Positions 21,803 through 25,157 of a stretch of DNA of 64,000 nt are shown one piece after another; position 1 is the first letter of the stretch, and each line of letters opens with the position of its first letter. The notes beneath the pieces were generated by a model. The model had not been told where the DNA came from. It saw only the letters and a list, made by a program, of their open reading frames with translations, and did no database searches. The stretch is from Shimia isoporae (lineage in GTDB: Bacteria; Pseudomonadota; Alphaproteobacteria; Rhodobacterales; Rhodobacteraceae): positions 434,001 to 498,000 of the forward strand of contig NZ_SMGR01000002.1 in NCBI RefSeq assembly GCF_004346865.1, in the 5' to 3' direction. Both the position numbers and the translations under genes were made by a program.

Positions 21803-22579
21803 ATGGCTTTTGAGACGATCATCGTCGACGTCGAGGACCACGTGGCCCTCATCAAACTCAACCGACCCGATGCCTTGAACGCGCTGAATCAACAGCTCAT
21901 CGGCGAGGTCATGACCGCCCTCAAGGAGGCGGATGCCAACGACAAGGTGCGTTGCATCGTGCTTACCGGCTCGGAAAAGGCCTTTGCGGCTGGTGCGGAC
22001 ATCAAGGAAATGTCCGAAATGAGCTTTGCCGACGTGAACCAGTCGGATTTGTTTGGCGCCTTTGGCGATGAAATCCAGCGAGTGCGCAAGCCGGTCATCG
22101 CAGCAGTCTCGGGCTATGCGCTCGGCGGCGGCTGCGAGGTGGCGATGGCGTGTGATTTCATCATTGCGGCCGACAACGCGAAATTCGGCCAGCCGGAAAT
22201 CAACCTGGGTGTGATCGCCGGTATTGGCGGGTCCCAGCGCCTGACGCGCGCTGTCGGCAAAGCCAAGTCGATGGATATGAATCTGACGGGTCGCTTTATG
22301 GATGCCGAAGAGGCCGAGCGCGCTGGTTTGGTCAGCCGCGTTGTGCCTGCCAAGAAGTTGATGGAAGAGACCCTCGCAGTTGCCCATAAGATCGCCGAGA
22401 AATCGTTGATTGCCGCGCGCACTGCCAAGGAGGCCGTAAACCGCTCCTTCGAAACGACGCTATCCGAAGGCCTGCTGTTCGAACGCCGCTCTTTCCATGC
22501 GCTCTTCGCAACTGAAGACCAGAAAGAAGGCATGGCCGCCTTCATCGAGAAACGCGAGCCGCAGTTCCGCGACAAATAA
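21803..22579 (+). CDS. Enoyl-CoA hydratase
   Basis: A 258-residue crotonase-fold enzyme adding water to trans-2-enoyl-CoA in fatty acid beta-oxidation. Seen: the oxyanion-hole segment [22 protein letters not shown] with the first catalytic Glu, and [20 protein letters not shown] with the second. Both glutamates present argue for true hydratase activity, as in short-chain EchA/Ech proteins. A strong terminator follows. It lies between mutM and rpsT. Confidence 0.92.
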
Positions 22580-22597
22580 ACCTGCAGAACTCCAGTC

Positions 22598-22628
22598 AAA
22601 GGCCGCTCCAGAACCGGGGCGGCCTTTT
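22598..22628 (+). terminator. Rho-independent terminator after the enoyl-CoA hydratase gene
   Basis: AAAGGCCGCTCC (22598-22609) pairs with GGGGCGGCCTTT (22616-22627), 12 bp with one G-T wobble, and a T follows. It starts 19 bases after the stop codon. Confidence 0.75.
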
Positions 22629-22718
22629 GCGTGAGGTAGGCCCACGCTTTGCTGACGGGATACCGACGCGATGCAGTCAGTGGATTCCAGCCTGTCCATA
22701 CATGTTGGGGATTCCCGT

Positions 22719-22746
22719 TTGCATTCCCTGCGAAACTCTCTATAAG
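22719..22746 (+). promoter_or_regulatory. Candidate sigma-70 promoter for rpsT
   Basis: TTGCAT (22719-22724), a 16-base spacer and TATAAG (22741-22746). Transcription starting near 22753 would give a leader of about 118 bases. GANTC sites lie at 22683 and 22710 just upstream and at 22789 inside the leader. Confidence 0.5.
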
Positions 22747-22870
22747 CACCCGTCATACATGCGCGTGCAGCCCGCTCTGGCTTGATCTGATTCTCTCTGA
22801 TGAACGAGAGGCCCTGTTCGGGACGTGGCACGCATTCACAAACGACCGAACCAAGTAAAGGTTACAGATC

Positions 22871-23134
22871 ATGGCAAATTCGCCCCAGGCAAAGAAGCGC
22901 GCCCGTCAGAACGAGCGCCGTCTCGAAGTTAACAAAGCCCGCCGTTCGCGCATCCGCACCTCCCTGCGCAAAGTCGAAGAAGCAATCGCTTCCGGCGACA
23001 AAGAAGCAGCAACCGCAGCTCTGCGCGCCGCTCAGCCTGAGCTGATGCGTGGCGTGACCAAAGGCGTCTACCACAAGAACACCGCATCGCGGAAAATGTC
23101 GCGCCTCGCGGCGCGCGTCAAAGCGATCGCGTAA
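22871..23134 (+). CDS. rpsT: 30S ribosomal protein S20
   Basis: An 87-residue, very basic, helical protein of the small subunit: [26 protein letters not shown]..., with [21 protein letters not shown] at the C-terminus. Length and ends match S20. AAAGG lies before the ATG. It is a monocistronic unit with its own candidate promoter, a long leader (S20 is known to be autoregulated in E. coli) and a strong terminator. It flanks the proposed replication origin. Confidence 0.97.
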
Positions 23135-23147
23135 GACTCTAGAGTCT
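23134..23147. repeat. 14-bp perfect palindrome overlapping the rpsT stop, holding two GANTC sites
   Basis: AGACTCTAGAGTCT begins at the last base of the rpsT stop codon. It contains GACTC (23135-23139) and GAGTC (23142-23146), both CcrM methylation sequences. In RNA it could form a short hairpin. Confidence 0.7.
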
Positions 23148-23158
23148 ATGTAAAATCC

Positions 23159-23188
23159 AAAAAGCGTCGCCTTAGGGCGGCGCTTTTT
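23159..23188 (+). terminator. Rho-independent terminator after rpsT
   Basis: AAAAAGCGTCGCC (23159-23171) pairs with GGCGGCGCTTTTT (23176-23188) across a TTAG loop, 13 bp with one wobble, and a T-run is included. It separates rpsT from the origin-like segment. Confidence 0.85.
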
Positions 23189-23308
23189 CTTTGCCCCCAG
23201 GTCAACTGGTTCCAACATTCGGGACAGGCACCCGAATGCCGATTCCAACTTTTTTGTATTGACCAAGCGCCCGAATCCGAGGCGTCGTCCGGAATCCGGA
23301 AACGAATC

Positions 23309-23317
23309 TTTTCCACA
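23309..23317 (+). promoter_or_regulatory. DnaA box TTTTCCACA
   Basis: One mismatch to TTATCCACA. It is followed 11 bases later by GATTCTTTCGC (23329-23339), which contains a GANTC site. Confidence 0.55.
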
Positions 23318-23399
23318 GATCAAAACCCGATTCTTTCGCGGATTTGCACAAGGCAAGGGCAGAGTGATCTTTCTTCGTAAATTAAGTGATTTCAGAGAC

Positions 23400-23408
23400 T
23401 TATCCACA
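23400..23408 (+). promoter_or_regulatory. DnaA box TTATCCACA (perfect consensus)
   Basis: Exact match to the consensus. It is followed 8 bases later by GATTCTTTTTCGC (23417-23429), the same word found after the box at 23309. Confidence 0.75.
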
Positions 23409-23789
23409 GGCCGCCAGATTCTTTTTCGCAAATGAATGAGTCAAGATCGAAGTTTCATTGCCGCGCGCGCAGGCAGCTTGCTAGTTTCGATCCTGCGATT
23501 CACATCGCCTTGGGGGGAACGGACGCTAAACCGCTGACGCACTGCCTTACCGTGCTTGCCTGCCAACTCGCTATTTCGGGTCGGCAAAGCGGTTTTTCTG
23601 GCGTTTAGACCGTTCCTACGGAGCAGCGCACCTGCGCTTTGTGAGCAAAACTGACCTGGGACAGGGACCCCCGGGACAAAGACGTTTTTGATCCGCTCTT
23701 CTGACGTTATGTCGCCCAATTGGTGTGATCTCGTAACGAAAAGAAGACGCCGGGCAACCGGCACATACGCTGAAGGAAAACGGGGACAC

Positions 23790-25157
23790 ATGACACAGGA
23801 ACAATGGGGCGCACTACGGCAAGAGCTGCTCAAGACAGTTGGCCAGAACAACTTTAAGACCTGGATCGAACCGATCGAGTTTTTTGAACTCGCCGACGGT
23901 GTCGCAACCTTCAACGTCCCGACCAATTTTATTGGCAACTATGTGTCCCAGAACTATGGCGACCTGATCCTGCACCAGATGACCCGCTCCGGCCATGCCG
24001 TCCAGCGCATTCACTTTGCTGTCGCAGCCAACACACCAGCACGACCTACAGCACCTGCTGCGGAAACGCCGGCACCGACCACTGCTCCGGCCTCTGCCGA
24101 GAACCGGGAACTGGAAATGACCGGCGCGCCGTTGGATGCGCGGTTCACCTTCGACAGCTTCGTCGTTGGCAAGCCGAACGAACTCGCCAACGCTGCGGCC
24201 CGCCGCGTTGCCGAAGGCGGTCCCGTCACTTTCAATCCGCTGTTCCTTTATGGCGGCGTAGGCCTCGGCAAGACGCACCTGATGCACGCCATTGCGTGGG
24301 AACTTCAGTCCCAGCGCCCAGATCTCAATGTCCTCTACTTGTCCGCCGAACAATTCATGTACCGGTTCGTGCAGGCCCTTCGTGATCGCAAGATGATGGA
24401 CTTCAAAGAACTGTTCCGCTCGGTTGATGTGCTGATGGTGGACGATGTGCAATTCATCGCCGGCAAGGACAGCACACAGGAAGAGTTCTTCCACACGTTC
24501 AACGCGCTCGTGGACCAGAACAAACAGATCATCATTTCCGCCGACCGTGCACCAGGCGAGATCAAAGATCTCGAAGAGCGCATCAAGAGCCGTTTGCAAT
24601 GCGGTCTAGTCGTGGATTTACATCCGACTGACTATGAGCTCCGCCTTGGCATCCTGCAGTCAAAAGTTGACAGCTACCGCGCTCAGTACCCGGATCTGCA
24701 ATTGGCCGACGGCGTGCTGGAATTCCTTGCTCACCGCATCTCTACCAATGTGCGTGTCCTCGAGGGCGCCCTTACCCGCCTCTTTGCGTTCGCCTCGCTC
24801 GTGGGACGTGAAATCACAATGGAACTCACACAGGACTGTCTCTCGGACGTGTTGCGCGCATCCGAGCGCAAGATCTCGGTCGAGGAGATCCAGCGCAAGG
24901 TCGCCGAGCATTACAATATCCGTCTGTCGGACATGATCGGTCCCAAGCGCGTGCGTACTTTTGCCCGCCCACGCCAGATCGCTATGTATCTCTGTAAACA
25001 GCTAACCTCGCGCAGCCTGCCCGAGATCGGACGCCGCTTTGGCGGCCGCGACCACACCACGGTGATGCACGGTGTGAAACGCGTTGAGGAGCTTCGCACA
25101 CAGGACGCGCAGATCAGCGACGATCTGGAACTTCTGCGTCGTGCGCTCGAGGCCTGA
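23790..25157 (+). CDS. dnaA: Chromosomal replication initiator protein DnaA
   Basis: A 455-residue AAA+ ATPase that binds DnaA boxes and opens oriC. Domain I begins WGALRQELLKTVGQNNFKTWIEPIEF. Domain II is a short Ala/Pro/Thr-rich linker (about residues 75-110). Domain III has Walker A GGVGLGKTHL and Walker B DVLMVDDVQF. Domain IV has the DNA-binding signature GRRFGGRDHTTVMHGVKRVEEL. I start at ATG 23790 because MTQEQWGALR matches the normal domain I; the in-frame upstream 34 codons are not family-like. A hairpin follows before dnaN. Confidence 0.97.
   Translation: MTQEQWGALRQELLKTVGQNNFKTWIEPIEFFELADGVATFNVPTNFIGNYVSQNYGDLILHQMTRSGHAVQRIHFAVAANTPARPTAPAAETPAPTTAPASAENRELEMTGAPLDARFTFDSFVVGKPNELANAAARRVAEGGPVTFNPLFLYGGVGLGKTHLMHAIAWELQSQRPDLNVLYLSAEQFMYRFVQALRDRKMMDFKELFRSVDVLMVDDVQFIAGKDSTQEEFFHTFNALVDQNKQIIISADRAPGEIKDLEERIKSRLQCGLVVDLHPTDYELRLGILQSKVDSYRAQYPDLQLADGVLEFLAHRISTNVRVLEGALTRLFAFASLVGREITMELTQDCLSDVLRASERKISVEEIQRKVAEHYNIRLSDMIGPKRVRTFARPRQIAMYLCKQLTSRSLPEIGRRFGGRDHTTVMHGVKRVEELRTQDAQISDDLELLRRALEA

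Follow-up and report, generated by a model that had tools for sequence, protein, structure and literature searches.

A conserved three-site GANTC element at the predicted dnaA promoter of Rhodobacterales

The gap between rpsT and dnaA in Shimia isoporae holds ten GANTC (CcrM) sites within a few hundred base pairs, and the question raised by this locus is what such a cluster does beside dnaA. An earlier reading, made from the letters alone and here called the sequence-only reading, proposed a methylation-state sensor, either at a replication origin or at the dnaA promoter. We analysed the locus within a 64,000 bp stretch of DNA, referred to as the window, and all positions are those of the window unless a contig is named. 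The cluster and its neighbours are as follows.

22871-23134, plus strand: rpsT (ribosomal protein S20), the gene upstream, from its ORF and Pfam PF01649.
23135-23501, no strand assigned: the reported ten-site GANTC cluster, assessed by site count, shuffles and window counts.
23159-23188, plus strand: terminator-like hairpin after rpsT, with 13-nt arms that are 92% complementary and a 4-nt loop.
23790-25157, plus strand: dnaA, stop codon included, the gene presumed to be controlled, from its ORF and Pfam PF00308, PF08299 and PF11638.

All ten sites are present in the letters of the window, at 23135, 23142, 23241, 23273, 23292, 23304, 23329, 23417, 23438 and 23497, and so are three further sites reported on the rpsT side (22683, 22710 and 22789). 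The cluster spans 367 bp with 49% GC. GANTC is depleted overall in the window, with 100 sites in 64,000 bp (1 per 640 bp), whereas 100 dinucleotide shuffles hold 280 on average. The frequency of about 1 per 280 bp expected in the sequence-only reading was thus too generous, and it is because GANTC is rare in the window that ten within 367 bp stand out. Dinucleotide shuffles of 23135-23501 gave a mean of 2.26 GANTC and a maximum of 9, with ten or more in none of 5000. Of the 15 other xyNy'x' palindromes, each occurs at most four times within the same span.

Counting GANTC in 400-bp windows had been proposed as a check, and we ran it over 431,656 of the 4,229,391 bp of the genome, about a tenth (contig C4, C2:414001-518000, which includes the window, and two further 20-kb pieces). 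Apart from the cluster, none of these 400-bp windows held more than six sites. The claim of an unusual density is confirmed. The trio near rpsT is ordinary: three sites in 289 bp, where the shuffle mean is 1.36 and 720 of 5000 shuffles reach at least three, so that these sites exist as reported and are not significant. Over 132 distinct Rhodobacterales gaps upstream of dnaA the mean is 4.6 GANTC per gap. The window ties with one relative (L200) for the most, ten, and only the window reaches ten within 367 bp.

For comparison we used 134 Rhodobacterales dnaA-upstream regions, 132 of them distinct, drawn from 24 Rhodobacterales loci in a set of 80, 107 rpsT-dnaA gaps, the window, and two dnaA loci unlinked from rpsT. 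These gaps and unlinked loci represent 109 of 194 other genomes of the order; in two of the 109 no dnaA follows rpsT (L107 and L127), and it is these two that supplied the unlinked dnaA loci, L236 and L237. The 132 regions were aligned without any motif requirement. The alignment showed a conserved block corresponding to 23416-23524, with these features, promoter positions being relative to the predicted dnaA transcript start.

23417-23421, no strand assigned: site 1, GATTC, a GANTC in 130 of 132 regions, predicted position -78.
23438-23442, no strand assigned: site 2, GAGTC inside GAGTCAA, a GANTC in 105 of 132 regions, predicted position -57.
23458-23463, plus strand: predicted dnaA -35, TTGCCG, from alignment and spacing.
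23482-23487, plus strand: predicted dnaA -10, TAGTTT, after an 18-bp spacer and preceded by TGC, from alignment and spacing.
23495-23508, plus strand: predicted 5' end of the dnaA mRNA, hairpin GCGAUUCACAUCGC, from a stem test against shuffles.
23497-23501, no strand assigned: site 3, GATTC with a variable central base, a GANTC in 129 of 132 regions, predicted position +3.

All three sites are GANTC in 102 of the 132 distinct regions. Spacing is rigid, 20-22 bp from site 1 to site 2 in 127 regions and 58-60 bp from site 2 to site 3 in 126. A search with fixed patterns recovered the element in 128 of the 134 loci of the order, missing L006, L020, L021, L027, L144 and L147. In L006 site 3 is lost and the hairpin kept, with a GANTC 6 nt further on. 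Outside the order the same patterns did not find the element in any of 84 loci (1.08 Mb, including non-Alphaproteobacteria and some loci without a dnaA-upstream region), and no second copy in 367,656 bp of other sequence from the same genome. The element is order-wide in Rhodobacterales.

We predict that the dnaA transcript starts near 23495, which would place the three sites near -78, -57 and +3. The pattern TTG-N3, 18 bp, TA-N4 fits 126 of 128 regions; it should be noted that the script tried 18 bp first. In the independent alignment the T and A of the -10 stand at 98% and gaps are very rare from the -35 onward, and site 3 sits 8-10 bp after the -10 in 120 of 126 regions. A scan with an E. 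coli-type promoter consensus found none at the predicted dnaA promoter. An RNA stem of at least four pairs is possible at the predicted 5' end in 112 of 132 regions, and in 300 shuffles the mean was 22 and the maximum 37. This excess speaks for the 5' end as predicted. The predicted stem takes in the GA of site 3 and would be a second reason for keeping these two bases. The 295-nt dnaA leader of the window folds better than its shuffles (z -2.46; 3 of 200 as good), and Rfam gave no match reaching the gathering score in 22400-24200. At 23512-23521 in the predicted leader, about six consecutive G and then an A/C-rich triplet show strong conservation.

Parsimony changes were counted on a DnaA tree covering 112 of the 132 regions. 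Across the five bases of site 3 they number 0, 0, 13, 1 and 2. Per base, site 1 shows 0-2 changes, GTCAA 0-1, the TTG of the -35 0-1 and the TA of the -10 2-3, and poorly conserved neighbouring columns show 30-58. A free central base between a frozen GA and TC, as in site 3, matches the prediction of selection for a CcrM site. Site 1 has a fixed T at its centre and site 2 a fixed G, and these two must therefore also serve something else. Site 2 is lost in 27 of the 132 regions.

The 132 gaps together hold 604 GANTC, and 273 are expected from base composition. Subtracting the 364 intact conserved sites leaves 240, so that on average the three positions carry the GANTC excess. Outside the order, 51 regions upstream of dnaA showed no enrichment (135 sites, 132.6 expected).

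In the two same-genus genomes with dnaA unlinked from rpsT (G040 and G070), the element stays beside dnaA. The suggested link to the dnaA promoter was borne out by these comparisons: three sites lie at fixed spacing round the predicted promoter, and they follow dnaA where rpsT is elsewhere. In G040 and G070 dnaA lies about 0.4 Mb from rpsT on the same contig. Its neighbour there is a divergent gene, presumably nth as judged by eye.

Seven sites of the cluster lie upstream of the element. We compared them with two genomes of the same genus that have the same gene order as the window (L103 and L104). Two features need to be placed here.

23304-23317, plus strand: a GANTC (GAATC) abutting a DnaA box, TTTTCCACA, in a block common to the window, L103 and L104.
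23400-23408, plus strand: an exact DnaA box, TTATCCACA, upstream of site 1 and not conserved in the order.

Neither L103 nor L104 has a GANTC matching any of the remaining six sites (23135, 23142, 23241, 23273, 23292 and 23329). These six look lineage-specific, with a putative function at most. With sites 1-3 conserved order-wide and 23304 within the genus, four of the ten sites have comparative support, and the conservation that had been proposed as a check is found for these and not for the other six. A looser pattern of GANTC plus DnaA box occurs in 9 of 168 gaps and abuts site 1 in L236 and L237. Immediately behind the rpsT stop codon, at 23135-23146, two GANTC make up a 12-bp palindrome, GACTCTAGAGTC, without a counterpart in L103 or L104.

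The cluster could in principle be a chance build-up of GANTC in AT-richer intergenic DNA, and the six sites that lack a counterpart in the two closest relatives compared speak for this. However, none of the 5000 shuffles reached ten, and for sites 1-3 chance is already contradicted by conservation across the order. We put the probability of a chance origin close to nil.

The placing of the replication origin at this locus did not hold up, and the ten-site cluster is probably not the origin. Cut into 4-kb pieces, the window has negative GC skew throughout; over C2:414-518 kb the skew is negative in 10 of 11 pieces and +0.004 in the first, and neither stretch shows a clear turn near dnaA. Exact parS occurs in two copies on contig C4, at 75.3 and 77.2 kb, and dnaA is on C2. 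The genes around the C4 parS copies, read by eye, we take to be rho, mnmE, mnmG, rsmG, parA and parB. The densest DnaA-box group on C4, at C4:71733-72056, has four boxes with at most one mismatch and falls in the 300 bp richest in AT within C4:60-100 kb. It contains one GANTC, and its flanks, again read by eye, are presumably maf and rho. We predict that this region is the true oriC, as a better candidate than the dnaA locus. This stays a prediction because the skew of C4 does not become positive before about 100 kb, which is some 25 kb away from the parS and DnaA-box region. In Rhodobacteraceae, oriC has been called by GC disparity, local GC minimum and proximity to parAB, according to the accessible text of PMC6699656. 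The gene hemE, tried as an origin marker, was rejected; it sits on contig C1, not on C4 with parS.

Distances in relatives were measured with rpsT as proxy for dnaA, treating contigs ending in rpsT as circles opened at dnaA. Both rpsT and parS lie on one contig in 14 of the 16 relatives searched for parS; for the other two the place of rpsT was not available. The distance ranges from 44 kb to about 0.66 Mb, being 44-166 kb in 11 relatives and about 0.48-0.66 Mb in three, all of one genus. In a finished relative with dnaA at base 1 (G001), skew turns weakly and noisily within 60-140 kb, and parS is at 126 kb. At the scale of the chromosome, dnaA is still near ori in the relatives in which parS was placed, and dnaA near ori is also described for three orders in the accessible part of PMC8116508.

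A chromosomal origin that includes the cluster, with sequestration of the SeqA kind, would fit the two exact or near-exact DnaA boxes and the AT-rich DNA beside dnaA. However, among the 132 gaps only those of the window, L103 and L104 have strict DnaA boxes in the 150 bp upstream of site 1. Skew has no clear turn at dnaA, the parS copies, the parAB-like genes and the densest C4 DnaA-box group are all on another contig, and dnaA is separated from parS by the distances given above in all 14 relatives. We consider an origin at the cluster very improbable. In E. coli, oriC combines clustered Dam sites with SeqA. The two loci are alike in crowding methylase sites into a short stretch linked with replication control, but the dnaA locus here reads as a promoter, not an origin, by the skew, parS and DnaA-box tests. 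A comparison of E. coli oriC and SeqA with Alphaproteobacteria is found in PMC11514494, cited from excerpts. As a side observation, transcription of dnaA seems to run head-on to replication, toward the origin, in the window (judged by skew sign) and in G001 (judged by parS position). In other relatives, for example G074 and G041, the gene points away from the origin.

Returning to the conserved element, the fixed central bases of sites 1 and 2 can be read on the minus strand.

23416-23444, minus strand: possible divergent promoter (hypothesis), with -35 TTGACT (23444-23439), a 17-bp spacer and -10 GAATCT (23421-23416).

The geometry suggests that sites 1 and 2 may form such a promoter: the distance between TTGAC(T/A) and GAATC is 17 bp in 78, 16 bp in 37 and 18 bp in 11 of the 132 regions, that is, within 16-18 bp in 126. 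Sites 1 and 2 could then be kept as the -10 and -35 of a divergent promoter, and site 3 as part of the 5' RNA hairpin, with methylation incidental. Besides this spacing, site 2, when not a GANTC, is TGTCAA (consensus -35) in 20 of 26 regions, and the hairpin part draws on the excess of possible 5' stems over shuffles given above. However, GAATCT is a poor -10, and the preceding G that completes GANTC is present in 105 of 106 AGTCAA regions, although a -35 does not need it. Similarly, the T and C of site 3 are unneeded by the hairpin, yet they change only once and twice on the tree. We regard incidental methylation as a serious but rather unlikely explanation.

Site 2 could also belong, together with GTCAAG...GAAGTT..GTTG, to an activator site just upstream of the -35, the overlap with GANTC being a by-product. 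In its favour, the alignment shows strong conservation at columns 23440-23444, 23452, 23454 and 23457, and gaps are rare as far as the -35. Against it, the motif with up to three mismatches has 13 matches in the genome and 22 for the reversed control, the dnaA copy alone having one mismatch, and sites 1 and 3 are left unexplained. An activator site with incidental GANTC overlap is in our opinion decidedly improbable. A genome-wide promoter class TTGACTC-N12-16-GANTC was rejected, with two matches (one here) and one for the reversed control, as was a binding motif common to other genes, which showed no excess over the reversed control.

We favour, with moderate confidence, the reading that the cluster is a dnaA promoter region built round the order-wide element and read through its methylation state. 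The genome encodes one CcrM-like methylase (N6_N4_Mtase plus RAMA). The RAMA domain of CcrM was found in all 195 genomes of the order searched, and GcrA in all 101 searched, this genome included; the GcrA family search gave one unexpected match, in Sulfolobus, among 14 controls. GANTC is present at sites 1-3 in the predicted dnaA promoter region, as would be expected of a CcrM-regulated promoter. A methylation-state sensor at the dnaA promoter, as first proposed, is plausible. In the scheme that we infer, comprising promoter function, start site, methylation and an effect of hemi-methylation, CcrM would methylate sites 1-3, and passage of the fork over dnaA would leave them hemi-methylated until CcrM acts again. 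Hemi-methylation, read by RNA polymerase directly or via GcrA, would alter dnaA transcription, and this may tie the supply of DnaA to one round of replication. Within the genus only, the GANTC abutting a DnaA box may in addition make DnaA autoregulation methylation-sensitive.

The papers compared below are cited from their accessible portions. As in dnaA and ctrA P1 of Caulobacter crescentus (PMC3973325, PMC3708114, PMC4287350), GANTC lies here in the (predicted) promoter of a master cell-cycle gene, alongside CcrM and GcrA. The GANTC of ctrA P1 is at about -28/-29 (same sources), whereas here three positions are fixed across the order, one of them at a predicted +3 within a predicted 5' RNA hairpin. 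Methylation effects have been measured in Caulobacter, whereas those at this locus are predicted. CcrM control of dnaA is disputed even there: an effect of CcrM methylation on dnaA is cited in PMC3973325, and mutating the site was without significant effect in PMC3885167. The core promoters of ftsZ and mipZ in Caulobacter carry the motif CGACTC and likewise have a conserved GANTC; in mipZ it lies near the start site, which is also the predicted place of site 3 (PMC3708114). These promoters differ in the genes and the motif, and here three sites stand at rigid spacing. GcrA acts as a sigma cofactor at methylated promoters (PMC7403470), and GcrA and a GANTC in the core promoter region are present here too; any role of GcrA at dnaA is putative.

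For Rhodobacterales, the authors of PMC8116508 suggested, from the small number of GANTC at ctrA promoters, that methylation linked to replication may lack a major role. An increase of GANTC around ori has been described for four orders (PMC9836097) and for D. shibae (PMC6473078). GANTC counts upstream of cell-cycle genes were given by Brilli et al. 2010 (PMC2877005), with no conclusion on control in the accessible portion, and the accessible portions of PMC7987155 and PMC3667746 do not mention the Rhodobacterales dnaA promoter. We found no description of an order-wide three-site dnaA promoter in a search of largely open-access literature. With GANTC nearly invariant at two positions and present at a third in four fifths of the regions, there is a case for re-examining Rhodobacterales, and a possible methylation timing of DnaA production is now testable at exact bases in a tractable strain.

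We further speculate that the element is a methylation-set switch between back-to-back promoters, a rightward dnaA promoter with GANTC at +3 in the hairpin and a leftward promoter with GANTC in its -10 and -35, whose balance would be flipped by fork passage. We think this unlikely as it stands. If true, dnaA output would be set epigenetically once per cycle, in an order with GANTC-poor ctrA promoters.

In L129 a 149-aa ORF with a rhodanese domain (PF00581) lies between the conserved promoter and dnaA, and by eye similar ORFs seem to be present in L020, L200 and L207.
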